A stretch of 36,151 nucleotides of DNA, taken from the NCBI GenBank assembly GCA_015661205.1, contig JACVXV010000006.1, positions 1 through 36,151 of the forward strand. The letters are read 5' to 3'. Numbering within the stretch: the first letter of the stretch is position 1; every line of letters starts with the position of its first letter. Below the pieces are notes generated by a model. It did not search any database, was not told the origin of the DNA, and saw nothing but the letters and a program-made list of their open reading frames with translations. The stretch is from Candidatus Brocadiaceae bacterium. GTDB lineage: Bacteria > Planctomycetota > Brocadiia > Brocadiales > Brocadiaceae. A program made the translations under genes and the position numbers. Positions 11,705 through 27,261 of the stretch are shown one piece after another.

Positions 11705-12692
11705 CTATTTGATACTGAGAAAATGTATGGTTACCTATAAACTGGACAGTATACCCCATTGATTGCAATTGCGTTTTGTTGGCCTGCTTATACCCTATGG
11801 CATAATGCATCTGCTTATCGGAAACAGATATCCTGATGTTATTCGAGGTATTTCCTTTCAGTTTGGCATGAATGATCTCTTCCCATATCTTTGCCATAAC
11901 CATTTCCTTAAAAGAAGGATGAAATGGCCCGTCTATCAGTGATTTTCCGGCAACGAGTTCATCGGAAGGGTGGAGTCCCATCCGTATGACGGATACATTG
12001 TTCCTTTCAAATATACGCACGATATCCTTTGTCCACTCTACCGCCTGTACAAGTGATAACGGAATGTACTTCCCCTCCCTATACCGCTTTTCCAGGGCAG
12101 TTCCCTTCACAATAATTGCGGGATAAATCCTCGTATTACGAGCGCCGAATGAAACGATATCGTTGGCCGTTTGAATAGACCGCTCATAACTGTCTTCCGG
12201 CAGACCTATCATCATCTGGAGACCCAGTTCGAAACCATATGCGCAGATCATTCGGGAGGCATTTTGAATATCTTTGGGGGTATGCCCGCGTCCTGATTGA
12301 TGTAAGACTTCCTGGCAGGTGGACTGTGCACCCAGCTCAACGGTCGTTACGCCGTACTTTTTCAGCAATTCAAGGATGGTTTCATTGATATAATCGGGTC
12401 TGGTTGACAATCTGACGCCTGATACCCTCCCGGTTTTTACAAACACAAAGGCCTCTTTCAGATACTGTTCCTGCAAATCAACAGGTATTCCCGTAAAACT
12501 CCCGCCAAAAAAGGCGATGTTTATGATTCTGTTTCCGGGCATTGTTTCAAGGTATTGCTCGACAATATGCCGAATCTCTTTGGGCTGCGGGATGGAATGT
12601 GTTCCGCTGATTTTCGACTGATTGCAAAAAACACATTGGTGCGGGCAGGCAAGCTCCGGGATAAAGATAGGAATATTAGAATGTTTTTTCAC
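11688..12692 (-). CDS. Elp3-like radical SAM protein, no acetyltransferase domain
   Basis: A 334-residue radical SAM enzyme. Cys16, Cys20 and Cys23 in ELACPHQCVFCNQ form the CX3CX2C cluster motif, GGSFTGIP supplies the SAM-binding glycines, and VRLSTRPDYI, VELGAQS and GLPEDSYERS follow the Elp3/COG1243-type order. The C-terminal GNAT acetyltransferase domain of true Elp3 is absent; instead about 60 residues end in HTFSQYQIDVCDN. The start is GTG 12692 behind GAGGATATA. It overlaps the DUF6873 gene and follows the activase by about 60 bases. Related proteins may act on tRNA or on small molecules; I do not assign a reaction. Confidence 0.8.
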   Translation of the reverse strand: MKKHSNIPIFIPELACPHQCVFCNQSKISGTHSIPQPKEIRHIVEQYLETMPGNRIINIAFFGGSFTGIPVDLQEQYLKEAFVFVKTGRVSGVRLSTRPDYINETILELLKKYGVTTVELGAQSTCQEVLHQSGRGHTPKDIQNASRMICAYGFELGLQMMIGLPEDSYERSIQTANDIVSFGARNTRIYPAIIVKGTALEKRYREGKYIPLSLVQAVEWTKDIVRIFERNNVSVIRMGLHPSDELVAGKSLIDGPFHPSFKEMVMAKIWEEIIHAKLKGNTSNNIRISVSDKQMHYAIGYKQANKTQLQSMGYTVQFIGNHTFSQYQIDVCDN

Positions 12693-12754: not shown

Positions 12755-15700
12755 TCAGTGGCTAGCGACCATCTGGCGTGTGCTGTTTGCTTTATCGTGT
12801 GGCTTGCGGATCGACTTGTTTGGTTTTTTTGAACTCAGCCTGCCTTCCATCCTTTGATACGCCTGGTGCATAAACGCCTCCAGCCTGGTTTCCTCGTTCG
12901 TCTGCTCCTGGCCGTCAAAGGACAATTTCAGGCACGGTATTCCGTAATAATCCTTCTGGAATTTCTCAAGCACACCGTTCACCACGGTACCCGGCATACA
13001 GTGGAAGGGGATTACGTTGACAATTCCGTCGTACCCATGCTCAACATATTCAACCACTTTTCCCATACTAAGCACCGGATCGCCCCTGTAGGAGTCGTCA
13101 ATGTACGGTTTTCCCTTTTTGATAAGGTCTTTGATAGAGGCGTCTTTCAGGAAGTGCCTGATCCTTCCCTTAAATACCCTGGTTAGCTTGTAGGCGTCAT
13201 ACCGTTGAACTATGTCGGAGATGATTTCACCGAGAAGCCCCTTGTAATTCTTCTCAAAGCGACACGATTCTCTTCGGCAATGGGCAATGTAGTTAATCCA
13301 TTCCCCGAAAGGAGGAATGAACACCTCGCCCCCCAATCGTTCTATGCTTTTTGTAAGGAAATTGTTTGCATAATCGTTGCATCGGACGTACGTCTCGCCA
13401 ATAACGCCTATCAGCGGACGCGGCTTGCTCCGATCCACCTTTATCTTTATAAATGCGTCCCGCGCCTCACGGGCAGGCACAACCAAACCCAGGTTTTTCT
13501 CCAGCGCCAGTTCTGCTTTTTGCACGAAGGTTTCGTAAACGGCGTCCGTCTCACCCTTGTTCAATTCATAAGGCCTCGTTTCCCTTTGCATTTTCTGCAA
13601 AAGATCGATGTAGACAATCCCATTCCATGACAATTTGCGGAAATGGGTGCCGAGGTTCTTGGTGTCTTCATTGTAGTTTTCTTCCTGGTCCAAGGTGTAT
13701 ATCGGCACGTTTGAAAACCCAAGATCGTCCAACACGATGCGTTGAAATTTATTGTATTGCCCGAACCGGCACGGACCGGAGGCGGTGGCCATAAGGAATG
13801 CGCTCGCTTCAGGATCAAAATCAGGGCTTAACGCCTTTTTCACGATATCCCCCGTGGTAAGGATCGCGGGATAGCATTCCTTGCCCGAAGTAAACTTTCG
13901 TCCAACGTCCACCGTTTGCTTGTTTGCCATAGGAAGCGCCTCGGCCAATACGCCATGGGCCCTCATAGCAGAGGCAATCATCCTGCCGTGGTCGCACATG
14001 TACGGCACGTAAAGCTTGCGTTTCTTAGTTGCCGGCAACGAGCGGAGGGGTACATCAGTTCTTATCCGCTTACCATTGTTCACCAGTTTTACGTTCTTAA
14101 GGCTGTCAATGAAGGCCTCGCACCGGGTTATCGCCCCAACGTCCGAGCTGTGCTCATCGATTTCTATCGTTAAACAGGGTTTTCCCTCTAATTCTTTGAT
14201 AAAAAACTTTGTTATAAACGAGTCGGGGCCGCAGCCGAAGTTGGTGATGTATAAGGGGAAAAGCCGCTTGTCTTTGGCAATGATTTTGGCCGCCGCAAGG
14301 AACTTCTGCCCCGTCTTCCAGTACATATTCGGGTAATCGTGGGCAACCGCCTCGATATCAAGCGTTAAAAAATCCAACGGTATGGTTAAGACCCCTAAAT
14401 CCCTCAATTTCTCAGGGAGACCCAGGTTCATACCCGTATCGCACCCGTTGTATGACCGGCTGATGAGGACAAAGGCCTTTTCGTTTTCACCCAGTTTTTC
14501 CAGCACCTCTTTTCCCCGCGCCTCCAAATTTCTGTTAAACGTTTTTAAGGCCTCGTTCGCCGTTTTGATGGCCGCAGTAACAACCGCGCCGCTCTTCCCC
14601 ATGCCTTTCGCCATTTGGCGAAGCGTTTCGTTGACCGACTCCTCACCATATTCAAAGTGGATAACCGGCGACAACACTTCAAACTTTCTGTCCGTAAAGT
14701 CAATGGCCGAACGCACAAGATACGGTATGCACTGCACGTAAGGACACGCATACGAGTGCGAAAGCTTTGAACTGGCGTGTGACAGGTTAATAACGCTTGG
14801 CAGGAAGAGATAATCAATTTCCTTCTCAAGCATGTCAATCACGTGTCCATGCGCCACTTTTATGGGGAAGCAGGTTTCTGCCGTGATTACTTCCACGCCA
14901 TTGTAGACAATGTCTTTATTCGTATCGCTTGAAGTGACGACCTCGAACCCCAATTCGGTAAAAAAAGCCTTCCACATCGGATAAAAGTCGTGAAAAGTGG
15001 AAACCTGTGGAATGCCGACCTTCTTGCCCGTAGGATGATCAGGCTTGCTCTTCTTATAGGTGTTGAAAAGCCCGTCCTTCCGCTCCTTGAAAAGCCGGGG
15101 CAGGTGGCGTCCCTTTTTCAAAGTTCTTTCGTCGTCAAACTTTCCGCAACGGCTCCCGTAATGGAGCGGATTTTCCCCGTCAATCGTGACCTTCCTGATC
15201 TCGCAGATGTTCGAACAGTCCTTGCAAACGAAGGAAGACAGATCGTACCGTTTGTGCCGGAGATCGAACCCCTTGAATCGTGATTTATCCCACGTCTTCT
15301 CCTCCATGGCGATAATGGCGGAACCGATGGCGCCCATAATATCATGGTGGGGAGGGACGATGACTTTTTTGCCCGTCACCTTTTCAAAGGCAGCCTTTAC
15401 GCCGCGATTGGCAGCCACGCCCCCCTGAAAGAATATCGTATTCCCGATTTTCCGGTCTTCGACAACCCTATTGATGAAGTTTAACACCACGGAATAGCTC
15501 AGACCGGCAAGCAGGTCGTCTTTCGACGTCCCGCGCTGCTGGTGGTGGTTAAGGTCAGATTCCATAAAAACGGTGCACCGTTCTCCAAGATGTGATGGAC
15601 AGCACGACGAAAGCGCCCGATTGCTGAACTCGCCCTTGATGCTTACACTGAGCTTCTCCGCCTGCTCCTCCAGAAAAGACCCTGTGCCGGCGGCGCACAC

Positions 15701-17029
15701 CTTGTTCATGGCAAAGTCCACGATAGCGCCGTTTTCCAGCCGTATAAACTTGGAGTCCTGCCCGCCGATTTCAAAAATGGTATCTACGTTTTTATCCACA
15801 TTGGCTGCGGCAGTGGCATGGGCGGTAATTTCGTTCTTTGCAATATCGGCGCCGATGAAATCGCCCGTAAGATAGCGCCCGGAGCCGGTCGTACCTGCCC
15901 CGCAGACGTTTACCTTGTCCCCAACCTCAAGACCCACTTCATAAAGCCCCTGTTTTACCGCCTCAAGCGGCCTTCCGGCCGTCATGAGATACCGGCGGGA
16001 CAGGATGTTTTTGTCCTTGTCGATAACGACGATATTCGTACTGATGGAGCCGACGTCAACCCCGACGTAAGCCTCCACCTTTTCGCCTTCCGCAATGGCA
16101 TGAACGCCATCGACGATAGGGTAATGTTCCGCCCGCAGCGGTTCAAGGTTGGAAGTCTTTGCGCCACGTTCCCGCAGATACTCTTCAACCTCTTTGAGAC
16201 CCCGGTAGGGTGTATGAAGTTCTTTGTCGATAATGGTAAACGCTGCGCCGAGCGCCCCCATTACCTTGAAATATTTGGGGATAATTAATTCTTCCGGCTT
16301 AAGCTCCAGTGTGTCCAAAAAGGCTTTTACCATACCAACGTTGGCGGCAACTCCCCCTTGAAAAACGATGGGCTTGGTAAATTCCTTTCCCTTTCCGATG
16401 TTGCTTTTAAAATTCCTTGCCATCGCGTAGCAAAGCCCCGCCACAATGTCGTACACCGGCGTGCCTTCCTGCTGAAGGTGGATCATGTCCGTCTTAGCAA
16501 ACACACTGCATCGCCCGGCGATACGCGGCGGATTTTTTGATTTCAGGGACAGTTCTCCGAACTCATTTTCTATGGAGACTCCAAGCCGGGTGGCCTGCTG
16601 GTCTAAAAAGGAACCCGTGCCGGCGGCGCACATCGTGTTCATGGAGAAATCGGCCACCTTTATTTGCTTTGTGGTCTCGTCCTGCTCAATGAGCATCAGT
16701 TTTGAGTCCTCGCCGCCAATCTCAATAATGGTCCTGGCTTCCGGATGCAGGGTTGTCGCCGCCTTGCTATGCGCGACAACCTCGTTAACAAAAGCAATAT
16801 TCATTAATTCGGACACCATTTTTCCACCGGTACCCGTTATAGCGATACCGTCAATGTCGTCAATATGGGTACGGTTAAACATCTCTTTTAAAACGAGAAG
16901 AAATATTTCTACCGTCTGGCCATGCGTCCGAACGTAGTGATTCTCCAAAATCTCCTTATTTTCATTAATGAGTACCGATTTTACGCTCACCGAGCCGATA
17001 TCCAGCCCGATATATTTTTTCTGTGACAT
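12755..17029 (-). CDS. Tandem acyl-CoA dehydratase activase-type ATPase/Fe-S protein
   Basis: A 1424-residue fused protein. Module 1 (about 1-300) and module 2 (about 325-600) are both ASKHA ATPases of the HgdC/BcrA activator type: IGLDIGSVSVKSV, EIGGEDSKL, CAAGTGSFLDQQ and GRCSVFAKTD in the first; VGVDVGSISTN, EIGGQDSKF, CAAGTGSFLEEQ and ERCTVFMESD in the second. Each keeps both cysteines that bind the subunit-bridging [4Fe-4S] cluster. A Cys-bearing linker (CKDCSNICEIR), a DUF2229 region (GIPQVSTFHDFYPMWKAFF) and an HgdB/D-like C-terminal part rich in cysteines follow. Family members drive very low-potential electron transfer with ATP; this fused type has no proven substrate. ATG 17029 is favoured by AGGAATAAG over the ATG at 17050. 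Its own candidate promoter lies upstream, and the HAO-like transcript ends before it. Confidence 0.88.
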   Translation of the reverse strand: MSQKKYIGLDIGSVSVKSVLINENKEILENHYVRTHGQTVEIFLLVLKEMFNRTHIDDIDGIAITGTGGKMVSELMNIAFVNEVVAHSKAATTLHPEARTIIEIGGEDSKLMLIEQDETTKQIKVADFSMNTMCAAGTGSFLDQQATRLGVSIENEFGELSLKSKNPPRIAGRCSVFAKTDMIHLQQEGTPVYDIVAGLCYAMARNFKSNIGKGKEFTKPIVFQGGVAANVGMVKAFLDTLELKPEELIIPKYFKVMGALGAAFTIIDKELHTPYRGLKEVEEYLRERGAKTSNLEPLRAEHYPIVDGVHAIAEGEKVEAYVGVDVGSISTNIVVIDKDKNILSRRYLMTAGRPLEAVKQGLYEVGLEVGDKVNVCGAGTTGSGRYLTGDFIGADIAKNEITAHATAAANVDKNVDTIFEIGGQDSKFIRLENGAIVDFAMNKVCAAGTGSFLEEQAEKLSVSIKGEFSNRALSSCCPSHLGERCTVFMESDLNHHQQRGTSKDDLLAGLSYSVVLNFINRVVEDRKIGNTIFFQGGVAANRGVKAAFEKVTGKKVIVPPHHDIMGAIGSAIIAMEEKTWDKSRFKGFDLRHKRYDLSSFVCKDCSNICEIRKVTIDGENPLHYGSRCGKFDDERTLKKGRHLPRLFKERKDGLFNTYKKSKPDHPTGKKVGIPQVSTFHDFYPMWKAFFTELGFEVVTSSDTNKDIVYNGVEVITAETCFPIKVAHGHVIDMLEKEIDYLFLPSVINLSHASSKLSHSYACPYVQCIPYLVRSAIDFTDRKFEVLSPVIHFEYGEESVNETLRQMAKGMGKSGAVVTAAIKTANEALKTFNRNLEARGKEVLEKLGENEKAFVLISRSYNGCDTGMNLGLPEKLRDLGVLTIPLDFLTLDIEAVAHDYPNMYWKTGQKFLAAAKIIAKDKRLFPLYITNFGCGPDSFITKFFIKELEGKPCLTIEIDEHSSDVGAITRCEAFIDSLKNVKLVNNGKRIRTDVPLRSLPATKKRKLYVPYMCDHGRMIASAMRAHGVLAEALPMANKQTVDVGRKFTSGKECYPAILTTGDIVKKALSPDFDPEASAFLMATASGPCRFGQYNKFQRIVLDDLGFSNVPIYTLDQEENYNEDTKNLGTHFRKLSWNGIVYIDLLQKMQRETRPYELNKGETDAVYETFVQKAELALEKNLGLVVPAREARDAFIKIKVDRSKPRPLIGVIGETYVRCNDYANNFLTKSIERLGGEVFIPPFGEWINYIAHCRRESCRFEKNYKGLLGEIISDIVQRYDAYKLTRVFKGRIRHFLKDASIKDLIKKGKPYIDDSYRGDPVLSMGKVVEYVEHGYDGIVNVIPFHCMPGTVVNGVLEKFQKDYYGIPCLKLSFDGQEQTNEETRLEAFMHQAYQRMEGRLSSKKPNKSIRKPHDKANSTRQMVASH

Positions 17030-17128
17030 AGTCTTATTCCTACTTTCCATTATCTAATGTATTGCCCTGCAATATCTTCTTTAATCTCTTGTGTAAGTCT
17101 TTTATGAACTACAAACAAATATCGTTAT

Positions 17129-17178: not shown

Positions 17179-17211
17179 TACAGGCGATGCCTGCCCTGCA
17201 TGGGGGGAAAT
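17179..17211. repeat. Short palindromic repeat, copy 3
   Basis: The hairpin CAGGC-GAT-GCCTG is followed by CCCTGC and GGAAATAAAAAA, running into the terminator at 17212. The order of parts matches copy 2 at 1501-1532. Confidence 0.5.
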
Positions 17212-17250
17212 AAAAAAGGCTTAATCTGTTTTAAGGATTAAGCCTTTTTT
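17212..17250. terminator. Rho-independent terminator after HAO-like gene
   Basis: Perfect 15-base arms AAAAAAGGCTTAATC and GATTAAGCCTTTTTT surround a 9-base loop, with U-tracts on both strands. It lies 46 bases beyond the stop of the HAO-like gene and separates that transcript from the activase. Confidence 0.9.
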
Positions 17251-17296
17251 GGTTTTTCCTAACTGTCTGTTCCGCAAGGGAACGCTTGTAGGCGCG

Positions 17297-19144
17297 TTAT
17301 TCGGCCAGGCAAGGTTCTCCTGCATGATTACATGCGGCCTTATCCGTGTCGCCCGGCTTCCTCTTCCAACCTAAAAGTAAATCGGTATATTCCCCATGCT
17401 TCCAGAAGTCATAGGCCTTGTGTTTTATGCCAACCTTGTCTTCCAGGGTTTTTATTCTTCTCAATCTGCTTGCTTCGGCCTTGATTTGAATGAGCCAACG
17501 GTCTTGCAAGAAGGCGCCCTTTCCATACGTTGCCCCGTACATCGCACCATGCGCCATAGCCTTGTATACGGCATTGGTTATGTAAACTAGTAACTCAAAC
17601 GACGTGCGCTCTATATCGGAGACATTAAACATCCTTCCTTCACCACCCAACAAGCTGAAGGTATAATGTCCCGCATAATCGGGGGCAAGATCATTTGGCA
17701 TGGGGTCCAGCAGGCCTTCATTGTAAAGATCCGTTACTATCTTCATCGCCTCACGCCATTTCGTAAAGCTGACCTTTATCGCTTCATCCATAGCCTCCAA
17801 CTGGTCTGTCGCAAAACGTGGCGAATGGCACCCCTTGCAAGTATTGATCCAGTTTTGTCTGGCTTCCTTATATTTGGGAGCGCCCCTGTCTACGAGGGAG
17901 GTTCCCATGTGGCTGTTAATTGTTGACGACTTTTGAGCGTTGTGTTCACCATCTTTCATGTGACAGTACGCACAGGTCGGGACTTTATAGTTTGCAGGCT
18001 TCAGGGGCTTGGTCCAGTCCCATGAGTGCTGCTCTGACTCGTAAATCATCCCGTGATACGATTCCCTGTACATCTCGTATTCGTAATGGTCCAAACCCGT
18101 ATGGCAAATACCGCAGTTATTGGGTTTTCTTGCCTCAGCAAGTGAAAAATCATGTCTTGTGTGGCATCCGTCACACCGGTTTTCGGCAATGCCGTGGCAC
18201 GTGGCGCAGGCAGTCACCTCCGCCGCGGGTTTTGATATCTGCCAGCTAGCCTCCACCACGCCTACATGAAATGCATGCGTATGTGAACCGGTCTTGCCGG
18301 AGCGATGCCCTGCTGTCTGTTCCTTATGACACTCTCCGCAATGCTTCCAGGAAGGCATGTACAACTGCTGATGGTTGCTTCCGTGGCATTTATTACAGCC
18401 AACAACACCCTTTTCGGTGGTTGCGTGTTTGCTCTTTCTCCACTGGGCTACAATGCCGGGCGTCTGCACGGTATGGCACATAACGCACTCTTCATGTTTG
18501 AATTCGCCGGCAACGGACGTAATGGGCGTATAATAGTGGTCAGGGTCATACCATCTGATAATTGGTAGAAAATTGAACAACTTTCCAAATTTGCCTTCAC
18601 CGGGAAACACCTCTTCCGGCTGCGTATAGGTCGCCGTTAAACCTCCATGGTAAAGGTCTCCGGAGTTATCCGGGCCGATCTTTTCTTTGGTAAGTTCTGA
18701 GATGATCTGTTGGATTGTCCTTTTATCTTTTGAACGAAAGATCACTTCGTCTTTTTTTACCGCAGGCGTTTTTTCCTCGGCATCCGGTTTTTTCACATCG
18801 ACTGCCAACTTTTCTTCCGCAACTACCGGCTTCTTCTCTTCAACTGCCAGCTTTTTCTCCTCAATTGCAGGTTTCTTCTCCTCTACTGCCGGTTTTTTTT
18901 CCTCAACCATTGGCTGAGAAGACACCGTAATGGAACCGTCCGACGATTTCTTCTCCATGGACGCCGGTGAGCCCACAGCCTGTGTAGACGCAGATTCTGC
19001 GGCTGGCGCAGACTTTGGCGCCGCTACCGGTGGAGTGCCTACCGCCTCCTTTTTTGCCTCACCAGGCGCGTCACAAAAAGCGCCAGTACTACCAAACAAG
19101 GCAAATGCTACCACAGAAACCACACCAATTATCCCCTTGTTCAT
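17297..19144 (-). CDS. Octaheme HAO-like cytochrome with Lys/Glu-rich extension
   Basis: An exported multiheme cytochrome of 615 residues. Residues 1-24 form a signal peptide. Eight CXXCH sites begin at Cys220, 250, 269, 313, 324, 344, 391 and 436, the number and crowding typical of the hydroxylamine oxidoreductase family; YEMYRESYHGM between hemes 6 and 7 and the helical C-terminus also fit. HAO-family members oxidise hydroxylamine or hydrazine or reduce nitrite, depending on whether a C-terminal Tyr cross-links the catalytic heme; tyrosines at 521, 527, 536 and 540 are candidates, but only an alignment can decide. Residues 25-135 are unusual: Ala/Pro-rich, then repeats of the type VEEKKPA. 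ATG 19144 has AAGGAGAACGGGAG. Last gene of a five-gene set, in the anammoxosome or periplasm by inference. Confidence 0.88.
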   Translation of the reverse strand: MNKGIIGVVSVVAFALFGSTGAFCDAPGEAKKEAVGTPPVAAPKSAPAAESASTQAVGSPASMEKKSSDGSITVSSQPMVEEKKPAVEEKKPAIEEKKLAVEEKKPVVAEEKLAVDVKKPDAEEKTPAVKKDEVIFRSKDKRTIQQIISELTKEKIGPDNSGDLYHGGLTATYTQPEEVFPGEGKFGKLFNFLPIIRWYDPDHYYTPITSVAGEFKHEECVMCHTVQTPGIVAQWRKSKHATTEKGVVGCNKCHGSNHQQLYMPSWKHCGECHKEQTAGHRSGKTGSHTHAFHVGVVEASWQISKPAAEVTACATCHGIAENRCDGCHTRHDFSLAEARKPNNCGICHTGLDHYEYEMYRESYHGMIYESEQHSWDWTKPLKPANYKVPTCAYCHMKDGEHNAQKSSTINSHMGTSLVDRGAPKYKEARQNWINTCKGCHSPRFATDQLEAMDEAIKVSFTKWREAMKIVTDLYNEGLLDPMPNDLAPDYAGHYTFSLLGGEGRMFNVSDIERTSFELLVYITNAVYKAMAHGAMYGATYGKGAFLQDRWLIQIKAEASRLRRIKTLEDKVGIKHKAYDFWKHGEYTDLLLGWKRKPGDTDKAACNHAGEPCLAE

Positions 19145-19181
19145 CTCCCGTTCTCCTTCCTATTGAATAAGCTTCAACAGA

Positions 19182-19194
19182 TGTAACTGTTACA
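19182..19194. promoter_or_regulatory. Palindrome upstream of HAO-like gene
   Basis: The perfect inverted repeat TGTAAC-T-GTTACA lies about 40 bases before the cytochrome ATG. It has the size of a small operator half-site pair. A protein binding here is inference. Confidence 0.3.
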
Positions 19195-19207
19195 CACTAC
19201 TAATCCA

Positions 19208-19225
19208 ACCACATCGTGATGTGGT
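19208..19225. promoter_or_regulatory. Hairpin between DUF2249 and HAO-like genes
   Basis: ACCACATC-GT-GATGTGGT has 8-base arms and begins two bases after the DUF2249 stop. With no U-tract it is not a terminator. It could be an operator or an mRNA structure setting the expression ratio of the two genes. Confidence 0.35.
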
Positions 19226-19226
19226 G

Positions 19227-19463
19227 TTAATTCTTCGTGATTTCTACCTTCCAGATGTCCGGTCCCTGTTCCACGTATTTCCAGTTCATTTGTCCCGTTC
19301 GTTCCGCATCCAATTGATACTTCAGCGGCTTAGGGTCGTGGTCGTTTATCAATACCATCAGCTCACCCTTTTTCAAGCCGTCGAAGGTATTAAAAATCTT
19401 TGGGTGTCTTTCTCTGGGTATAATATTTCTCACATCAAGTACAACAGGCTGGGCTTTGCTCAT
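19227..19463 (-). CDS. DUF2249 domain protein
   Basis: A 78-residue single-domain protein. PVVLDVRNIIPRERHPKIF, FDGLKKGELMVLINDHDPKPL and a C-terminal WKVEITKN are the DUF2249 pattern (a small TusA-like alpha/beta fold). The domain is often encoded with hemerythrins, hybrid-cluster proteins or nitric-oxide related genes, but its reaction is not known. The His-Asp pair in NDHDP is the conserved feature. AAGGA stands seven bases before ATG 19463. It lies between the cupin and the HAO-like gene in the same direction, which ties it by position to nitrogen-oxide chemistry. Confidence 0.8.
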   Translation of the reverse strand: MSKAQPVVLDVRNIIPRERHPKIFNTFDGLKKGELMVLINDHDPKPLKYQLDAERTGQMNWKYVEQGPDIWKVEITKN

Positions 19464-19559
19464 AATGATTCCTTTTAGATTAGTTCAACAGTTATGGTTA
19501 TTTAACGTTTTTAATAATAAGGTTGGTAAGTATTCACCGGAAAGAGAAGCGCTCTATCG

Positions 19560-19862
19560 CTATCCTACGCTAATGGCCAGAACAACCATTCTTTCTATGC
19601 ACTTCATCCCACGTGAAACGCCTTCCTGGGCAATGATGATGGTGTCTTTTTCCATATCAACCTTCTTGTCGTCAAGGTAGAAAACGCCCTTGCCCTCTTT
19701 CACGTAGAAAATGCCGATGCTGTGTCCGCCGTGGGGAGGTATTTCCTGCCCCGGCTCCATACAGATAAGGGGCATCTTCACCTTTGGAGAAGCAAATAGG
19801 ATGTTTGGAATAAAGTGTTCTTTATTGAACTGTATTTTTTCTTTTAAACGTATCGGTTCCAA
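19560..19862 (-). CDS. Small cupin-like protein
   Basis: A 100-residue single cupin domain. Motif 1 is recognisable as PGQEIPPHGGHSIGIFYVKEGKG with two histidines, but the glutamate usually following them is absent. Motif 2 (TIIIAQEGVSRGM) lacks the usual Pro and His. Metal binding may therefore be altered or lost, and a binding or sensing role is as likely as catalysis. The start is TTG 19862, one base after the stop of the DUF1858 gene. The upstream AGGAGG within that gene's end supports it, and all of the cupin strand order is kept. It is evidently translated together with the DUF1858 gene. Confidence 0.75.
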   Translation of the reverse strand: MEPIRLKEKIQFNKEHFIPNILFASPKVKMPLICMEPGQEIPPHGGHSIGIFYVKEGKGVFYLDDKKVDMEKDTIIIAQEGVSRGMKCIERMVVLAISVG

Positions 19863-19863
19863 G

Positions 19864-20094
19864 TTATTTCTTAACCTCCTCTTGTTTTGATGCTGCTTCG
19901 TTCAACTCCTTCACAAACTTATCAACGTCGGTGCTGTGCATCATGCAGGCAAGATTGATGTCTTCCGTTCCAAACGAAGGGCAGTCAAAGCACCCTTTCC
20001 CGAAATATTTTGCGAAAACCGCCTTTGTGGCGGGATATTTTTTTGTTACCTCACCCGTGCTCATTTTCTTTGTGATGACAATTCCACTGCTCAT
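19864..20094 (-). CDS. DUF1858 redox-disulfide domain protein
   Basis: A 76-residue protein with the DUF1858 domain, known also as the hybrid-cluster-protein-associated redox disulfide domain. Diagnostic parts are EVTKKYPATKAVFAKYFGKGCFDCPSF, with the CFDC pair, then EDINLACMMHSTDVDKFVKELN. The two Cys of CXXC could form a disulfide or bind metal. The start is ATG 20094 behind GAGGAGATGGGATT; the frame upstream to 20136 lies in a hairpin and is not used. No hybrid-cluster protein is in the window; here the domain sits with a radical SAM protein and an octaheme cytochrome instead. Confidence 0.82.
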   Translation of the reverse strand: MSSGIVITKKMSTGEVTKKYPATKAVFAKYFGKGCFDCPSFGTEDINLACMMHSTDVDKFVKELNEAASKQEEVKK

Positions 20095-20134
20095 AATCCC
20101 ATCTCCTCTACCAATAAAAACACCTCTGAAGTGC

Positions 20135-20195
20135 AACGGTGCTTTGCACCGTTAAACGACGGAAGGACAGCCCTATCGGCTGATTCCTCTGCCGT
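20135..20195. promoter_or_regulatory. Two consecutive intergenic hairpins
   Basis: Between the radical SAM and DUF1858 genes are AACGGTGC-TTT-GCACCGTT (20135-20153) and an imperfect longer stem 20159-20195 built from ACGG, AGGA and CAGCC pairs. Neither has a U-tract. They may stabilise or process the mRNA, lowering or raising downstream expression. Confidence 0.45.
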
Positions 20196-21436
20196 TAACT
20201 AACCCCTGCCAGGGAAACTTCCTGATCCGCCATTTCAATGGGCGCAATGTCTTCAATCCTTACCGGCAAACGGACGTCTTTGGGGAGCGGATCAATGTAC
20301 TTCTTCCGGTACGCCTTGCTTTGCATACGGCAGGTAGGATATCTCTTGCTAAAGTCGGGATGGGATACCATCTTCTTCCATATCTCCTGAATCGACATAT
20401 CCCGCACGTTTCCGAAGTTAATCGGGTTAAAATCACAGGGATTGATGTCGCCGTACGCCGTCATGTAAAATTGCGATTGCGCCCCGTAGCACCCTACGCC
20501 TCTGGGGGAGTTGATAATCGACATGCAGTTTATCCCCATTGGGTGGTCCATTTCGTGATACTTTTTTGTAATGGCGATCAGTTGCTTCCTGTCTTCAGCC
20601 GTCAATATTTTGGATGCATCTTTCAAAAACCGGCCGGAGGGTATGCAATCAAAGATTGTTACCTCCGAAAATCCCTGTTCTTGCGCAATCTTCAGAAGTT
20701 TTTCCACCTTTCCCGTCTTGATGCTCTCCGTAGTCGCATACGTCGATATCCCCGTCAGGATTCCGGCCTTTCTACACCGTTCTGCCCCTGCAAACGCCTT
20801 TTGATAGCAGCCGGGCACCGCCCTGAATTCGTTGTGCAGTTCCGGTTCGCTGCTGTCTATTGAAATGTTCAATGAAAATAATCCTGCCTCAGCAAGTCTT
20901 TTCACGTTCTCTTCCGTCAGGAGCAGGCCGTTGGTGAATATCATCGAGATGGCCTTGGTTTTATCCACGTAGCGAATCAAATCGTAGAGGTCTTCTCTCA
21001 GCATGGGTTCGCCGCCCACGTAGATAATCAGGCTTGCTCCCAGGTCCAACGCCCCATCGACAACCGTCTTTATTTCTTCCACCGTAAGGTCTTTTTTGGT
21101 GGCGTCAATAAAGGGGTCCGCGCTACAGTGGATGCACTGGCACTGGCATTTATGGGTTATCGCCAGATTGGCGGTAACGGGAAACGCCATCTTCTGCAGC
21201 ATCATCCTCAATTTTCTTTCAAGGAAGCGCATGCCCGCCTGGCTTGGAAACGGCGGATTATAGAGGTTATACACCTGCATGCCGTTAACTTTTGCAATAA
21301 CTTTCAGTGAGTTGACTTTTTCGAAAAACTGATCAATGTATTGCTGCAACATCGGACCCAGCACGCCGCCCGCTTTTCCAACAATTTTGCCGTCTCTGAT
21401 ATCAGCTTCTATATGTAAAAAATCAAACGATGCCAT
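20195..21436 (-). CDS. Radical SAM/SPASM protein of the HAO set
   Basis: A 413-residue radical SAM protein. Residues 1-80 are an unusual N-terminal region; Cys97, Cys101 and Cys104 (CQCQCIHC) form the CX3CX2C cluster site, with GGEP at 141-144 for SAM binding. The C-terminal SPASM-type region has Cys304, Cys316, Cys334 (GDINPCDFNPINFGNV) and Cys369 as likely ligands of one or more extra clusters. SPASM enzymes modify peptides or proteins; NirJ-type relatives act in heme d1 synthesis. Either role would suit a neighbour of a P460-type cytochrome, but this is inference. ATG 21436 has GGGAGGAGTAAAC. It begins 17 bases after the GnnA-like gene, so it may belong to the lipid A operon transcript. 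Confidence 0.85.
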   Translation of the reverse strand: MASFDFLHIEADIRDGKIVGKAGGVLGPMLQQYIDQFFEKVNSLKVIAKVNGMQVYNLYNPPFPSQAGMRFLERKLRMMLQKMAFPVTANLAITHKCQCQCIHCSADPFIDATKKDLTVEEIKTVVDGALDLGASLIIYVGGEPMLREDLYDLIRYVDKTKAISMIFTNGLLLTEENVKRLAEAGLFSLNISIDSSEPELHNEFRAVPGCYQKAFAGAERCRKAGILTGISTYATTESIKTGKVEKLLKIAQEQGFSEVTIFDCIPSGRFLKDASKILTAEDRKQLIAITKKYHEMDHPMGINCMSIINSPRGVGCYGAQSQFYMTAYGDINPCDFNPINFGNVRDMSIQEIWKKMVSHPDFSKRYPTCRMQSKAYRKKYIDPLPKDVRLPVRIEDIAPIEMADQEVSLAGVS

Positions 21437-21453: not shown

Positions 21454-22467
21454 TCACGTTTGGACTGATTTGAGATTCTTCTCTATTTCTAACAAAACAT
21501 TATTCGCAACTTCTATAGCCTTCAAACCGTCTTCGCCGGAGACGAGAGGCTCTTTGTGTTCCACAATGCACTGCACAAACGATTCGAGTTCTTTTTTGAG
21601 CGGCTCGTAATCATCCATCTTGATATGCTCGATCTTCAGTAAATCACCGAAGACGTAGCTTTTTAAATCGGCAATGGACGACACGTCCATGCCTGCAATG
21701 TTTAACGCATTCAGCGTCAGTTCCGGAGACTTTTTATATATTAATGCTTCTTTTTTCTGATAATCAATAGAAATATAGGAATCTTCGGAAAACAATCTCA
21801 TCTTACGCATCGGCGTAAGGGAGACCCTGCTTGCCGTGACGTTTGCCACGCACCCGTTGGCAAACTGAAAGCGGACGTTGGCAATGTCTTCTTTATCCGA
21901 TATGACGTTGACGCCTACGGCGTCGATTTTTTTTATCTGGGAGCCCGTTATGTTCAGGATGATATCGATATCGTGTATCATCAGGTCCAGCACGACTCCA
22001 ATATCCGCAGACCGGAAGGTAAACGGGCTTAGCCGGTGGCATTCAATAAATTTGGGTTTAATGGCAAGTTTTCTAAACGCGCTGATCGCCGGATTAAAAC
22101 GTTCGATATATCCCGCCTGCAGCACCAATCCCTTTGATTTGCTAATATCGATTAATTCCTGCGCCTCCGATACAGTACCCGTCATCGGTTTTTCAATCAT
22201 AACGTGAATTCCATTTTGAAGGAATTCCTTTGCGACGGCATAATGGGATTTGGTCGGCACGGCGATACTTACCGCGGATACCCTGCCAATCACGTCCCGG
22301 TAATGCATGAACGCACGGGTGTTATGCATTTTGGCAATGCCTTCCGCCTGTTTCTGCCGTAAGTCAACGACGCCAATCAGGTCAACACCGGGAGTTCCGG
22401 CATAAACCCTTGCGTGTTCCTTCCCCAAATGTCCGACGCCAATAACGGCAACTTTTAATTTCTGCAT
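21454..22467 (-). CDS. Gfo/Idh/MocA oxidoreductase, GnnA-like
   Basis: A 337-residue NAD(P)-dependent sugar oxidoreductase: Rossmann start VAVIGVGHLGKEHARVY, the family signature MIEKPMTGTVSEAQELI and HDIDIILNI in the substrate domain. Placement right after lpxA is the hallmark of UDP-GlcNAc 3-dehydrogenase GnnA, which with the aminotransferase GnnB makes the 3-amino sugar for amide-linked lipid A. GnnB is not in this window, so the call rests on family and position. ATG 22467 is chosen; the lpxA stop lies immediately upstream, so translation is coupled. The radical SAM gene follows after 17 bases. Confidence 0.75.
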   Translation of the reverse strand: MQKLKVAVIGVGHLGKEHARVYAGTPGVDLIGVVDLRQKQAEGIAKMHNTRAFMHYRDVIGRVSAVSIAVPTKSHYAVAKEFLQNGIHVMIEKPMTGTVSEAQELIDISKSKGLVLQAGYIERFNPAISAFRKLAIKPKFIECHRLSPFTFRSADIGVVLDLMIHDIDIILNITGSQIKKIDAVGVNVISDKEDIANVRFQFANGCVANVTASRVSLTPMRKMRLFSEDSYISIDYQKKEALIYKKSPELTLNALNIAGMDVSSIADLKSYVFGDLLKIEHIKMDDYEPLKKELESFVQCIVEHKEPLVSGEDGLKAIEVANNVLLEIEKNLKSVQT

Positions 22468-22469
22468 GA

Positions 22470-23291
22470 TCAATTATTCATCTTTGGTTCCAGACACCGT
22501 AAAGACTCCCGATATCTACCCAGTTTACCCTTATCAACGTTTCTCAAGAATGTGAGAAGGTATTTGACTTCCGGAATGACACCCGGCTGGTTTTCCAATT
22601 CGTCCAGGATTTTGGCCCTGTTAAGTTCAGAGGAACGAAACAATTTTAAAAAGGCTTGTTTTATCTCGTCTATTTGCTCTCCCGAAAACCCTTCTCTTTC
22701 CAGGCCAACAACGTTCACCTGACGGATTTTAGCGGGGTGCCCTTCAATGATAACGTACGGCGGAACGTCCTGCACAATCCTGGTATGGCCTCCCACGTAG
22801 GAGTATCGCCCAATCGTTGCAAACGGCTGTATGCCAACCAGCCCCATTAATTTCGCGCCCCGCTCTACCATGATATGCCCACCCAATAAAACACCATTGG
22901 CCAGGAGGACGTTGTCCTCAATAATGCAATCATGGGCAACGTGTGTGCACGCCATGAAGAAATTGTTGTTACCGATTACCGTCTTTCCACCGCCCCCGGC
23001 AGTCCCTGCATTGATGGTCGCACACTCCCTCACCACGTTGTTATCGCCCATAATAAGGTACGTGCGCTCGCCCCGGTACTTAAGGTCCTGCGGTTCCGCA
23101 CCCAGCACGGTATTCGGGTGGATAACGTTGTTTTTCCCTAGCGTCGTGAATCCCGTGACGGTGACGTGGTTTTTAATAATGGTGCCGTCCCCAATGGTGG
23201 CGTTTTTATCAACTATAGAGAAAGGCCCGATTTCAACGTCCTTGCCCAAACAGGCATCCGGATGCACGATTGCCGACTTATGTATTTTCAT
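22470..23291 (-). CDS. lpxA: UDP-N-acetylglucosamine acyltransferase LpxA
   Basis: First step of lipid A synthesis: transfers a 3-hydroxyacyl chain from ACP to the 3-position of the UDP-sugar, in the cytoplasm. The 273-residue product (ATG 23291, MKIHKSAIVHP) is a left-handed beta-helix of hexapeptide repeats with a helical C-terminal tail. THVAHDC holds the catalytic His120, matching His125 of the E. coli enzyme. The length is normal. The frame extends upstream into lpxC, but that part is not LpxA. If the next gene is really GnnA, the natural acceptor would be the 3-amino sugar and the product an amide. Confidence 0.94.
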   Translation of the reverse strand: MKIHKSAIVHPDACLGKDVEIGPFSIVDKNATIGDGTIIKNHVTVTGFTTLGKNNVIHPNTVLGAEPQDLKYRGERTYLIMGDNNVVRECATINAGTAGGGGKTVIGNNNFFMACTHVAHDCIIEDNVLLANGVLLGGHIMVERGAKLMGLVGIQPFATIGRYSYVGGHTRIVQDVPPYVIIEGHPAKIRQVNVVGLEREGFSGEQIDEIKQAFLKLFRSSELNRAKILDELENQPGVIPEVKYLLTFLRNVDKGKLGRYRESLRCLEPKMNN

Positions 23292-23346
23292 CCCATTTTC
23301 CCTTAATTTCCAGCGATACCATTCCACTTGGCCGGTTATCAGTCTG

Positions 23347-24210
23347 TTACCGGTGCATCGCAATCGTGGCAATTTTTTCTGCCATCTGTACGTTCAATGA
23401 ATGCCCGGATCTATGAGCGACAATGTGTCCCTGAATTGCCATATTGGACAGATAAAGATCTCCCATAAGGTCAAGTATCTTGTGTCTCACCAGTTCGTCT
23501 GGAAATCGCAATTCCGCCGGTTTTCCGGAGATGGGTTTTGTCATCTCCCCGTTCTCATGAATAAGGATACTATTGTCATCGGTAACCCCTTTGCCCAGTC
23601 CCAGTTTCTTAAACTCTTCGACGTAGGTGCTAAGGCCGAACGTCCTGGCCGACATAATTTCCCTGCGAAAACTATCTTCCGTAAACAGTATCTCGCAGCT
23701 TTGCTTTTTTGCAAAAGAACCGTTAAAATCAAGGGTGTAAGAAAGAACAAGTCCCTTTTCAGACGGCAACGCCTTGATGCTCGCTTGCCCGCTGTTGACC
23801 ATAATCGGTGTTTTGACGATAAAAACCTTGCGTTCGCCTTTCTGCTCAACAACACCTGCTTTGCCCAGGAGGTTTAGAAACAAAAGGGCGCTTCCGTCTC
23901 CTGCGGGGACTTCCCGTCCATGAATTTCAACCTCCAGGTTGTCAATCCCCAGCACCGCTAACGCAGCCATAAGGTGCTCTACGCTCTCGACCTCCGCTTC
24001 CGCATCTTTTAAGCAGACGTGCTTGTTGTCACCGAACAGGCGTTTCACGTGGGCAGCGACCTTCGGGCATCCCGGCAAATCCACACGAGTAAAAAACATA
24101 CCCGAGTTGAGCGACGCCGGTTTGAAGCAGAGGCTGGAGCTTTCACCCCGAAACATGCCGATGCCGGAATACCGTATTTCCCTGCCAATAGTCTTTTGTG
24201 TATCGTGCAC
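23347..24210 (-). CDS. lpxC: UDP-3-O-acyl-GlcNAc deacetylase LpxC
   Basis: Zinc-dependent committed step of lipid A synthesis. In 287 residues the zinc ligands His79, His243 and Asp247 are present (ESVEHLMAAL, VRHKILDLMGDL), with Glu78 as general base and His270 in HRSGHS, in step with E. coli Glu78, His79, His238, Asp242 and His265. Not fused to FabZ, unlike in several related groups. The start GTG 24210 lies four bases beyond the ompH stop. lpxA follows after about 55 bases. lpxD, which normally stands between ompH and lpxC or lpxA, is absent from the window. Confidence 0.95.
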   Translation of the reverse strand: MHDTQKTIGREIRYSGIGMFRGESSSLCFKPASLNSGMFFTRVDLPGCPKVAAHVKRLFGDNKHVCLKDAEAEVESVEHLMAALAVLGIDNLEVEIHGREVPAGDGSALLFLNLLGKAGVVEQKGERKVFIVKTPIMVNSGQASIKALPSEKGLVLSYTLDFNGSFAKKQSCEILFTEDSFRREIMSARTFGLSTYVEEFKKLGLGKGVTDDNSILIHENGEMTKPISGKPAELRFPDELVRHKILDLMGDLYLSNMAIQGHIVAHRSGHSLNVQMAEKIATIAMHR

Positions 24211-24214
24211 GATA

Positions 24215-24874
24215 CTACTTTCCCTTGCTCACTTCTGCATATTTCTTGTTTAAGCTATCAATCACGCGGCTTGTCAGTTCCACCGCATCGGAATTATACA
24301 ACACCGCTTTGATTCCAACTTTAAACTGTAATTCAGAAATTCCTCCGCCCTGCAATTCCGGCTCTTCTTTTTTTATAATCAGGTCATATTGTTCCCGCTT
24401 GCCGATTTCTTCCACTTCTTTGCAGACCTCTGTGTAAAGACCCTCAAAGTAGCTCTTGTACTTCTTCACCAGGTTTTTTTCCGCAAATTTTGCAAAAGAC
24501 TCCAACTCCATATTCTTTTTTTCAAAGGTTTCTTCATCCTTTTTTCTCGCTTCGCTTCCCAAGTCCATAAGTTGTATCTTCTCACTTAGAGCCACCAGTT
24601 CTTTCTTTTTATCATTAATGCTTTTTTGGTACTGGGCCTCTTGTTCTTTCAGTTGAGTGTCACACTTCTTCCGTTTCTCATACTTTGAAAATACGTCATT
24701 TAAGTCAACCACCCCTATTTTTAACGCTTTCACAGAAGTCGCATCCGCACCCACAACCTGCTTCGGAAAACTATTCACGACAAACAGGGACAAACACACA
24801 ACACCTACAAATGCATAAATGAACGCCCTGTTGTTTCTTTTATCATTAGTCTTATACAAATCTTTTCGTTTCAT
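24215..24874 (-). CDS. ompH: OmpH/Skp-family periplasmic chaperone
   Basis: Holds unfolded outer-membrane proteins in the periplasm on their way to BamA. The 219-residue product has a basic N-terminus, a hydrophobic signal or anchor segment at about 18-36, then KIGVVDLNDVFSKYEKRK and a long charged coiled coil (about 65-165), the tentacle region of Skp proteins, ending in a short beta part. Somewhat longer than E. coli Skp (161). ATG 24874 begins three bases after the bamA stop, with GGAGGC supplied by the end of bamA, so the two are coupled. Confidence 0.88.
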   Translation of the reverse strand: MKRKDLYKTNDKRNNRAFIYAFVGVVCLSLFVVNSFPKQVVGADATSVKALKIGVVDLNDVFSKYEKRKKCDTQLKEQEAQYQKSINDKKKELVALSEKIQLMDLGSEARKKDEETFEKKNMELESFAKFAEKNLVKKYKSYFEGLYTEVCKEVEEIGKREQYDLIIKKEEPELQGGGISELQFKVGIKAVLYNSDAVELTSRVIDSLNKKYAEVSKGK

Positions 24875-24876
24875 AA

Positions 24877-27261
24877 TCAGTAGCCTCCACCGCCTCCAAA
24901 ATTAAATGAAAATGCCTGTACTTCATCCATATCCTCTTTAAGAACAGGGATACCATAGTCTATTGCTATAGTAGAACGGCCGAGAAAGGGGACGTTCAAC
25001 CTCAAGCCGAGTCCGGTAGCCAGTCTGAATTTGTCAAAATTAATGTCACTCATATCCCTATCGGCCTTTCCGGTATCAACAAATACCGCCATACGGATGA
25101 TGTCTTTATAAATAGGAACAAGATATTCCGCATTCATTAACATCAATAAATTACCACCAATTTGATCTCCCGTAACCTCATCAACCGGAGACACGCCACG
25201 ATAATTAAAACCCCTGAGCGACCCGTAACCACCCGCATAAAATCTTTCAAAGATTGGAATGCCGTTTTCGGTGGTCGGCTGCAAAACACCGAAGGTTCCC
25301 CCATAAGCAACAACGTGTTTTCCCCATTTTGGCACTTCCATAACGGTAGTATACTTTGTTGACTTTATGGTATATTTGGCAAGGTCTACGTCCATCCCTG
25401 AAAATTCTAATGCTGATTCACCATCATACCCACGCGTCGGCATGTAAATGTTGTCAGTCTTCATCATATTTGCCGATAGGGTAATGGCTGATTTCAAGTA
25501 GCTGCCTTCCGCATCCAATACGTCCTTCGGGATAGCTTCCAGCGAATCAAATCTACGGCTATCGATATCAATATAATTGAACTCAGGGCTAAGCCGCACA
25601 AAAAAGTCCCTCTGGATTTCCCTGCCAACGGTCACCCTGGAACCCATGCTTTGCTGCTGATAGAGACGATACCATCTCAAGTAATCAAAGAGGCTTGCTC
25701 CGGCGCTGTACGGAGAATCAAAAACGGACGGATTCGTTAACGACGCCATGATTTCCGTTCTTTCAAAACCGGGGCTAAACCGCAACGTCAGTATTTCTCC
25801 ACCCCCGCGGAAGGCATTACCTGCCAGAAAATCATCCCAGCTTTTAGGCAGATCGGTAACGTCGAAGTTTCTATCGGTATATGAAATATCGCCAAATGCA
25901 CCGACATTGGCGCCATAACCGCCGCCAAATCTGAGCATGCCCGTTCGTCCTTCCTTCACGTCTATCAGCACGTTCTGCTGGTTTGGCTCGGAACCGGGTT
26001 CAAAATTAATACCAGCCGGCATACCGGATTCCATATCAAAATATCCGGTATTGGTAAGCCGCCGCTGTGTGTCACGTATCTTTTCGGTATCCAGCTTTTC
26101 ACCCGGATGAAACGTCACCTGCCTCCGGATAACGTTGTCACGTGTTTTATCATTTCCCGCTATCTTAACCTTTTCAATATAAGATCTATCCCTTTCCTCT
26201 ATTTTAAAAGAAACGTCAGCCTTTGCCTCTTCCGAACTAAAGGAATGCTTTTCTTTAATCGCGGCGCCGATATACCCTTGCTCTCCGTACGCCAGCCGTA
26301 TTTGATAGGTATCTTTATCAACCGCGTCCAGGAAGAAAGGACCACCTTCTTTCAACTTCAATTTCTGCTTTAATTCCTCATCGGTAAAAAGCGACTCTCC
26401 ATCAATTTCCAGGCTCCGCACATAATATCTTTCACCCTCCTTTACGTGGAAGGTGATAAACATCTCACTATTATCTTCGCTATAGGTCATCTCCCATCCG
26501 ATATCGACGTCCAACCACCCGTTATTCATGTAGTACTCTTTTACTTTTTCGACGTCTGACTCAAACTTATTCGTTTCGAATCTACCCGGGAAAATGAAAG
26601 AGGGGAAACGCTTTCGTTTCGTTTCCATCTGCTTGCGGAGTTTTCTCTGCGTAAGTCCGGTGTTTCCCTGAAAGTCAATCATGGCAACGCGAACCTTCGG
26701 ACCCTCGTCGATGTTGAAAGTCAATACCGTCTTTCCGTCCACCGTCTGGGCTTCTGCTTTAATCTGTACGCGGCAAAAGCATTTCTTGATGTACAATTCA
26801 CGAATCTTTTCTTCATCGAGCTTGAGGAGATACGGTTTCAAATAATCTCCCTGCTTTATCTCAATTTGTTTTTTCAGCTTCTTGGTCTTGATTTTTTTGT
26901 TCCCTTGAAACTGTATTTCATCGATTACCGCCCGCTCAACAACGAGAAATGCAAGCTTTACCCCATCCTCCAACTCTTCAATCTCTATTTCAATATTATC
27001 AAAGAACCCCAACGACCATATAGCGTCCACGTCACGGCTTATGAGCTGCGAATCAAAGGGGTCGCCTTCTTTCACACTGATGCTGCCTCTTATGGCGGAG
27101 ACGCTGATCCTCTGGTTGCCCCTAAATTCAATCTTTTTTATGATGGGAACCGGGGGTTTCCTGTTTTCGGCATGAAGATTTTTTGCGTGCCCGAAATGTA
27201 AGGTGATAACAAGCGCAACAATCAACCCCACTACCCGTAATAAAATCCTGCACGCGTTCAT
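24877..27261 (-). CDS. bamA: Outer membrane assembly factor BamA
   Basis: Inserts beta-barrel proteins into the outer membrane. The 794-residue product has a signal segment (about 8-26), about five POTRA domains (from IKKIEFRGNQRISVSAIRG to roughly residue 430) and a 16-strand barrel, including GGGYGANVGAFGDISYTDRNF, the FYAGGYGSLRGFNYRGV block (VRGF-type motif in loop 6 region) and ATGLGLRLNVPF. The C-terminal beta-signal AFSFNFG is followed by GGGGY, whereas most barrels end at the aromatic residue. ATG 27261 overlaps the dnaB stop (ATGA), coupling replication and envelope genes. Confidence 0.95.
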   Translation of the reverse strand: MNACRILLRVVGLIVALVITLHFGHAKNLHAENRKPPVPIIKKIEFRGNQRISVSAIRGSISVKEGDPFDSQLISRDVDAIWSLGFFDNIEIEIEELEDGVKLAFLVVERAVIDEIQFQGNKKIKTKKLKKQIEIKQGDYLKPYLLKLDEEKIRELYIKKCFCRVQIKAEAQTVDGKTVLTFNIDEGPKVRVAMIDFQGNTGLTQRKLRKQMETKRKRFPSFIFPGRFETNKFESDVEKVKEYYMNNGWLDVDIGWEMTYSEDNSEMFITFHVKEGERYYVRSLEIDGESLFTDEELKQKLKLKEGGPFFLDAVDKDTYQIRLAYGEQGYIGAAIKEKHSFSSEEAKADVSFKIEERDRSYIEKVKIAGNDKTRDNVIRRQVTFHPGEKLDTEKIRDTQRRLTNTGYFDMESGMPAGINFEPGSEPNQQNVLIDVKEGRTGMLRFGGGYGANVGAFGDISYTDRNFDVTDLPKSWDDFLAGNAFRGGGEILTLRFSPGFERTEIMASLTNPSVFDSPYSAGASLFDYLRWYRLYQQQSMGSRVTVGREIQRDFFVRLSPEFNYIDIDSRRFDSLEAIPKDVLDAEGSYLKSAITLSANMMKTDNIYMPTRGYDGESALEFSGMDVDLAKYTIKSTKYTTVMEVPKWGKHVVAYGGTFGVLQPTTENGIPIFERFYAGGYGSLRGFNYRGVSPVDEVTGDQIGGNLLMLMNAEYLVPIYKDIIRMAVFVDTGKADRDMSDINFDKFRLATGLGLRLNVPFLGRSTIAIDYGIPVLKEDMDEVQAFSFNFGGGGGY

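Follow-up and report, generated by a model that had tools for sequence, protein, structure and literature searches.

Gene content and conservation of the locus

Profile searches place five genes on the minus strand between positions 17297 and 21436 of the window, by which we mean the entire 36,151-nucleotide stretch of DNA analyzed here. In their order on this strand, they encode a radical SAM protein (RSAM), a DUF1858 protein, a cupin, a DUF2249 protein (the last three hereafter called the trio), and an eight-heme HAO-like cytochrome (OCC). The DUF1858 and cupin genes are separated by one base (19864 versus 19862), and the run ends at a long, A/T-flanked hairpin (17211 to 17251; -19.9 kcal/mol, z = -6.75, with no shuffled sequence scoring as well) that we predict to be the intrinsic terminator of the minus-strand unit. 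These results bear out the description given in a first-pass annotation, which had listed five same-strand genes, two of them one base apart, a strong terminator, an eight-heme HAO-like protein, and a SPASM-type radical SAM enzyme.

Thirty of 33 Brocadiaceae genomes from 11 genera carry the five genes in this unbroken order, which excludes chance adjacency. The genes located 3′ of OCC vary among these genera while the five-gene order is unchanged. As a separate observation, one genome (G033) retains the trio but carries its OCC gene 2.7 Mb away.

Upstream of RSAM, the co-directional run continues unbroken through gfo, lpxA, lpxC, ompH, and bamA, with only 17 bp between gfo and RSAM in the window. 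Therefore, position 21436 is not a natural boundary of the unit. Across 29 loci, the gfo-RSAM gap has a median of -4, and the gap between RSAM and DUF1858 has a median of about 110 bp (range 32 to 1140). Based on these gap statistics, we propose that the RSAM-DUF1858 interval (20095 to 20194, minus strand) is the boundary between two modules, although a search of this gap for a conserved terminator or promoter found neither. Values for the DUF2249-OCC gap are unreliable because the N-termini of OCC proteins do not align.

A radical SAM protein in lipid A operons

The RSAM gene (20195 to 21436, minus strand) encodes a 413-amino-acid protein that matches the radical SAM (PF04055, 1.2e-21) and SPASM (PF13186, 1.2e-8) profiles. 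It carries the cluster site CxxxCxHC (C97, C101, and C104) and the auxiliary cysteines C316, C334, and C369, the last in the sequence C369-R-M-Q. All of these cysteines are invariant across phyla, consistent with membership in the radical SAM superfamily with a SPASM/twitch auxiliary domain, and mean column identity is 57% among 21 members from several phyla.

Neither the sequence nor the fold of RSAM names a substrate. The AlphaFold model has a pLDDT of 90, and the fold search returned generic matches only (SkfB, SuiB, BlsE, MoaA, PqqE, and viperin) that give no substrate hint. The best NCBIfam scores come from tetrapyrrole radical SAM models and fall far under the cut-offs, and assignments as AhbD (162 bits versus a cut-off of 500) or NirJ2 (138 bits versus 500) were rejected. 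Scalindua makes ladderanes, and a role for RSAM as a ladderane gene was set aside because Scalindua genomes of the genus g20 lack it. The ladderane candidates named in the available portion of one report are other radical SAM genes (PMC2649909).

RSAM closes a bamA-ompH-lpxC-lpxA-gfo operon, where it overlaps or abuts gfo. In the window, this operon comprises minus-strand genes for a BamA-like outer-membrane assembly protein (24877 to 27261), an OmpH/Skp-like periplasmic chaperone (24215 to 24874), an LpxC-like deacetylase (23347 to 24210), and an LpxA-like acyltransferase (22470 to 23372), all recognized by eye and from synteny. These are followed by a Gfo/Idh/MocA oxidoreductase gene (21454 to 22473) identified by profile search, which overlaps lpxA by 4 bp and whose product resembles UDP-GlcNAc 3-dehydrogenase at a score under the curated cut-off; gfo was found in 58 of 62 Brocadiales genomes. 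The complete arrangement bamA-ompH-lpxC-lpxA-gfo-RSAM recurs at 72 to 81% identity in three further families (f2, f3, and f4), with rpsB-tsf-pyrH-frr coming after RSAM in most of the loci read and with neither the trio nor OCC nearby.

The association of RSAM with lpx genes also extends to more distant organisms. Two loci from other Planctomycetota (L158 and L235) have the order lpxA-gfo-lpxB-RSAM, wherein RSAM and lpxB overlap by 4 bp, with LpxB identified by Pfam in the former and by eye in the latter. Genes of the lpx group also lie close to RSAM at three additional loci (L161, L164, and L166), and in one WS1 genome lpxK is immediately 5′ of RSAM. No lpx neighbors were seen for the Armatimonadota and myxococcal relatives.

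RSAM is inherited apart from OCC

The first-pass annotation had suggested that the radical SAM protein modifies the cytochrome or its heme. In Kuenenia stuttgartiensis (G031), gfo is followed by DUF1858, cupin, DUF2249, and OCC, with RSAM missing; the HOX copy of this genome is indistinguishable from kustc1061 in our tree. Likewise, the 13 Scalindua genomes of the genus g20 have bam-lpx-gfo-rpsB without RSAM and carry the trio at another site. Conversely, other Brocadiales families carry RSAM without an adjacent trio or OCC, and 12 of the 15 non-Brocadiales RSAM carriers tested lack an HAO-like match at 1e-10. Outside Brocadiaceae (f1), the presence of RSAM and that of DUF2249 are anti-correlated (2/12/12/3; Fisher p = 0.0007), a value that counts genomes rather than independent losses and precedes phylogenetic correction.

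RSAM tracks lipid A genes rather than OCC in its inheritance, and on this ground we reject modification of the cytochrome or its heme as its role. Thus, OCC is an unlikely target, and a more likely one is lipid A or some other precursor of the envelope. The expectation that homologues of the five genes stay together holds across Brocadiaceae and fails outside this family, which is the pattern that the first-pass annotation had itself named as counting against its idea. Overall, its interpretation is partly supported.

OCC and the DUF1858-cupin-DUF2249 trio

The OCC gene (17297 to 19144, minus strand) encodes a 615-amino-acid orthologue of kusta0043 (PF13447, 1.1e-43). Eight CxxCH motifs lie within residues 220 to 436, as expected for the heme sites of HAO and HOX proteins, and Tyr540 lines up with Tyr467, the known heme-cross-linking residue of N. 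europaea HAO. Among the clade members read, only the relocated G033 copy lacks this tyrosine. The N-terminus has a hydrophobic segment, judged by eye to be lipoprotein-like in many members, and then a long linker rich in Lys, Glu, and Pro. OCC is related to HOX kustc1061 in the tree and is a paralogue of this hydroxylamine oxidase, and its clade includes the K. stuttgartiensis gene taken as kusta0043. Assignment as a hydrazine dehydrogenase of the kustd1340 type was rejected (NF052343, 443 bits versus a cut-off of 900). We interpret OCC as a putative hydroxylamine-to-NO oxidase whose gene adjoins a putative module for N-oxide sensing or protection. The available portions of two studies report a kusta0043 transcript and not its neighbors (PMC12053348, PMC4913261).

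The trio begins with a hybrid-cluster-associated redox disulfide protein of about 76 amino acids (19864 to 20094, minus strand; PF08984, 1.5e-11; TIGR03980 above cut-off) that contains the motifs CFDC and ACMMH. Next are a small cupin_2 protein of 100 amino acids with a TTG start (19560 to 19862, minus strand; PF07883, 2.9e-8), in which visual inspection shows no clear second metal-binding motif of the canonical kind, and a single-domain DUF2249 protein of 78 amino acids (19227 to 19463, minus strand; PF10006, 2.3e-29). No export signal is evident in the trio proteins. In several genera, a second cupin copy adjoins the first.

Orthologues of the DUF2249 protein occur in 46 of 62 Brocadiales genomes (68 to 91% identical), and the trio is conserved in Brocadiaceae, the g20 Scalindua genus, and family f5. 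It is an older, independently conserved module. Its relatives tie DUF1858 and DUF2249 to nitric-oxide or N-oxide genes, in support of the first-pass annotation, which had placed the two domains around nitric-oxide genes: DUF2249 domains are found in hemerythrin fusions with cupin, ferredoxin, Crp, or Rrf2 neighbors, or adjoin DUF1858-NnrS.

A probable junction of two modules

Our preferred interpretation, which we hold to be probable though by no means assured, is that the locus is a stable junction between an RSAM module belonging to the lipid A operon and a putative N-oxide module formed by the trio and OCC. The 5′-deoxyadenosyl radical of RSAM would act on a precursor of lipid A or of the envelope, which may be a sugar derived from UDP-GlcNAc, rather than on the cytochrome. 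OCC, exported and probably membrane-tethered, would oxidize stray hydroxylamine to NO, and the N-oxides so formed may be handled by the trio as a redox-disulfide system for sensing, regulation, or protection, much like DrpA/DrpB from Thermus. The function proposed for the trio draws on gene neighborhoods and one distant experimental precedent. With regard to RSAM, it is conceivable, at a little under even chances, that its family comprises undescribed modifiers of lipid A or outer-membrane precursors that reside in Planctomycetota lipid A operons, adjoin lpxK in at least one WS1 genome, and were secondarily lost in K. stuttgartiensis and the g20 Scalindua genus.

The conservation of order in 30 of 33 genomes speaks against two modules, and selection may have acted to co-express the whole run, RSAM included. 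The same conservation, together with top RSAM profile scores from heme enzymes (AhbD and NirJ), would fit a single functional set in which RSAM modifies OCC or its heme and the small proteins carry electrons, sulfur, or a ligand. However, those scores fall well short of the NCBIfam cut-offs (162 of 500 bits), K. stuttgartiensis and the g20 Scalindua have OCCs and the trio with no RSAM, and genomes of Brocadiales and of other phyla carry RSAM without such neighbors, which makes a single set highly improbable.

It is also rather unlikely, though the least so of the alternatives, that the trio and OCC are mutually unrelated and have simply stayed where they came to lie in the ancestor of Brocadiaceae, behind a housekeeping operon with strong expression. 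Most g20 Scalindua trios adjoin an aminotransferase gene and dnaA or other unrelated genes rather than OCC, OCC orthologues or HOX-like OCCs of family f3 have no trio, and the two are far apart in G033. Yet a HOX-like OCC of a different clade lies directly 5′ of the trio in two Scalindua genomes (L104 and L105), a DUF1858-NnrS-DUF1858 protein is encoded directly 5′ of an OCC of that same clade in genus g19, and the order has held over 11 genera despite differing genes 3′ of OCC. Another possibility is that the trio delivers a cofactor or sulfur for cytochrome or Fe-S maturation, with DUF2249 as a TusA-like carrier and DUF1858 as a disulfide donor, instead of serving in sensing or protection. 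The naming of TIGR03980 as a redox disulfide domain and the conserved CxxC of the trio DUF1858 agree with such delivery, but the 78-residue DUF2249 protein contains no cysteine, genomes of f2 and f3 have HAO-like OCCs with no DUF2249 match, and trio relatives keep company with NnrS, hemerythrin, and regulators. We consider delivery very unlikely.

Under the two-module interpretation, a tempting five-gene grouping is corrected into two questions, namely what RSAM does in a lipid A operon and whether the trio senses or guards against hydroxylamine and NO, which are central anammox intermediates. K. stuttgartiensis, which has lost RSAM, and K. hertensis, which retains it, offer a natural comparison that requires no genetics.

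Comparison with known systems

Lipid A biosynthesis operons (bamA-ompH-lpx-gfo/gnnA-lpxB) are like the window in gene content and order, including the position at which RSAM abuts gfo or lpxB, and differ in the radical SAM gene itself. To our knowledge, no radical SAM enzyme is counted among the Raetz-pathway enzymes or placed in lipid A operons, and anammox bacteria have no reported lipid A modification; a literature search combining radical SAM with lpx turned up no paper in the collection covered. AhbD, NirJ, and related heme or d1-heme enzymes share with RSAM the radical SAM domain and the C-terminal auxiliary-cluster layout, but their context is heme, whereas that of RSAM is lipid A.

HOX kustc1061 (PDB 4n4j) and kusta0043 have the eight CxxCH motifs, cross-linking tyrosine, and Hao_C end seen in OCC. 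Compared to the kustc1061 group, OCC is about 55 to 58% identical, has a long N-terminal linker, and adjoins the trio.

Nitric-oxide loci that encode DUF1858-NnrS or DUF2249-hemerythrin proteins present the same small domains as the trio in the company of N-oxide proteins, whereas the window set includes no NnrS, hemerythrin, or regulator. DUF2249 genes are also induced during haloarchaeal denitrification (PMC11218638). In Thermus thermophilus, drp mutants lose the nitrate control of nitrate reductase expression, and DrpB is a single DUF1858-DUF2249-DUF2249 protein encoded beside the nar operon (PMC6282519). This fused arrangement beside nar is not found in the window, where each domain is a protein of its own, a cupin accompanies them, and the neighbors are lpx genes and an octaheme cytochrome; the likeness to DrpA is by description. 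Nevertheless, the trio shares with the Drp pair, which is tied to nitrogen-oxide respiration, the combination of a DUF2249 protein and a DUF1858-containing partner.

Two modules joined at one locus

Five genes, for a radical SAM/SPASM-twitch protein (20195-21436), a DUF1858 protein (19864-20094), a cupin (19560-19862), a DUF2249 protein (19227-19463) and an octaheme HAO-like cytochrome (OCC; 17297-19144), lie in this order on the minus strand, with one base separating the DUF1858 and cupin genes. As the first-pass annotation had proposed, they end at a strong terminator, a hairpin at 17211-17251 that folds far more stably than shuffled sequences (z -6.75). Because the order is intact in 30 of 33 Brocadiaceae genomes from 11 genera, a chance arrangement is excluded. 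However, the proposed single gene set consists of two modules joined at their meeting point. Beyond the terminator are genes for a 1431-aa BadF/BcrA-type ATPase (12755-17050; DUF2229 and HGD-D domains, CoA-enzyme activase-like) and a second radical SAM protein (10976-12692; PF16199 C-terminal domain), the latter overlapping a DUF6873 gene.

The set lacks an upstream edge at 21436. The same-strand run extends through gfo (a Gfo/Idh/MocA oxidoreductase gene), lpxA, lpxC, ompH and bamA, with dnaB, L9 and ssb genes further upstream; of these five operon genes, gfo was assigned with Pfam in the window, the other four being named by eye and synteny. Across 29 loci, gfo and the radical SAM gene are about as tightly spaced (median -4 bp, range -4 to 23) as genes within the bam-lpx-gfo operon, whereas the gap between the radical SAM and DUF1858 genes is wide (median ~110 bp, range 32 to 1140), placing the natural boundary between these two genes. 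No conserved terminator was found in that gap across loci. In genome G042 (L135, 3698-4838), the gap spans ~1.1 kb, has a reading frame as well as a long hairpin, and may contain a mobile element.

A radical SAM enzyme among lipid A genes

The proper company of the radical SAM enzyme is the lipid A genes. In three other Brocadiales families (f2-f4, taking in Anammoxibacter, Scalindua sediminis/rubra and others), proteins 72-81% identical to that of the window are encoded by the terminal gene of bamA-ompH-lpxC-lpxA-gfo, followed in most loci read by rpsB-tsf-pyrH-frr (named by eye); neither the DUF1858-cupin-DUF2249 trio nor OCC is beside it in these loci. Among other Planctomycetota, L158 and L235 have it after lpxA-gfo-lpxB, overlapping by 4 bp, and lpx genes are nearby at L161, L164 and L166. 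In a WS1 genome, the preceding gene is lpxK. Since no lpx genes were seen beside Armatimonadota and myxococcal relatives, the link is strong in Planctomycetota only.

The enzyme had also been suggested to modify the cytochrome or its heme. Genome G031 is K. stuttgartiensis or a very near relative, as there is no tree distance between its hydroxylamine oxidase (HOX) copy and kustc1061. It lacks the radical SAM gene, and gfo is followed directly by DUF1858-cupin-DUF2249-OCC. Genus g20, likely Scalindua, has bam-lpx-gfo-rpsB without it in the three genomes read and carries the trio elsewhere. Among Brocadiales outside Brocadiaceae, radical SAM and DUF2249 genes occur together in 2 genomes, the former alone in 12, the latter alone in 12 and neither in 3 (Fisher p = 0.0007, ignoring phylogeny). 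An HAO-like match is absent from 12 of 15 non-Brocadiales genomes with the enzyme. Thus, it is inherited apart from the trio and OCC and is unlikely to modify the cytochrome.

Its invariant cysteines are consistent with a radical SAM site and one auxiliary cluster, and its structure model is confident (pLDDT 90). Sequence and fold gave no substrate hint, and fold-search matches were generic. An uncharacterised radical SAM enzyme within lipid A operons is the more surprising thread of this locus.

The trio and the octaheme cytochrome

In g20 and family f5, DUF1858-cupin(-cupin)-DUF2249 forms an independent module; genus g19 keeps the cupin and DUF2249. In two g20 genomes (L104, L105), the gene immediately upstream of the trio encodes a HOX-like OCC from a sister clade, and in g19 the OCC of that clade is preceded by a DUF1858-NnrS-DUF1858 protein. 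In two g19 Scalindua genomes (L187, 5921-8269; L189, 5458-7887), this protein carries DUF1858/ScdA_N-type domains at its N-terminus and another DUF1858 at its C-terminus, with an NnrS-like membrane part between them, and the HOX-like cytochrome is directly downstream. DUF2249 relatives elsewhere in the phylum are hemerythrin fusions or lie near DUF1858-NnrS, Rrf2, Crp or cupin genes, and DUF2249 genes are induced in haloarchaeal denitrification (PMC11218638). Our best inference is a predicted N-oxide sensing or protective role for the trio. Outside the trio context, four f3 loci (L117, L118, L119, L123) have a frame of ~160-180 aa whose DUF1858 domain is 59-65% like that of the window.

We take the window OCC to be the orthologue of kusta0043, a kustc1061 paralogue, because lengths match (591-592 aa in PMC3482989 and PMC4913261; 591 aa for the G031 clade member) and because kustc1061 and the hydrazine dehydrogenases are already matched to other genes. 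The window OCC shares ~55-58% identity with the kustc1061 group, and its score falls short of the hydrazine dehydrogenase cut-off. In published work, kusta0043 transcript levels are about one tenth those of kustc1061 in one reactor (PMC4913261), and downregulation upon hydrazine exposure has been reported (PMC12053348).

Many clade members have a lipoprotein-like N-terminal segment and a Lys/Glu/Pro-rich linker. The linker differs in length and sequence between species; in the window, an imperfect 21-bp tandem repeat (18801-18907) encodes its EEKKP-type repeats. Tyr540 of the window OCC is retained in all clade members read except that of G033, which lies 2.7 Mb from the trio. In this relocated OCC (L083, 6573-8255; L067), AMQGAA-GN replaces AMYGATYGKG, the sole such case in the clade. 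Tyr540 aligns with Tyr467 of N. europaea HAO, the heme-cross-linking residue.
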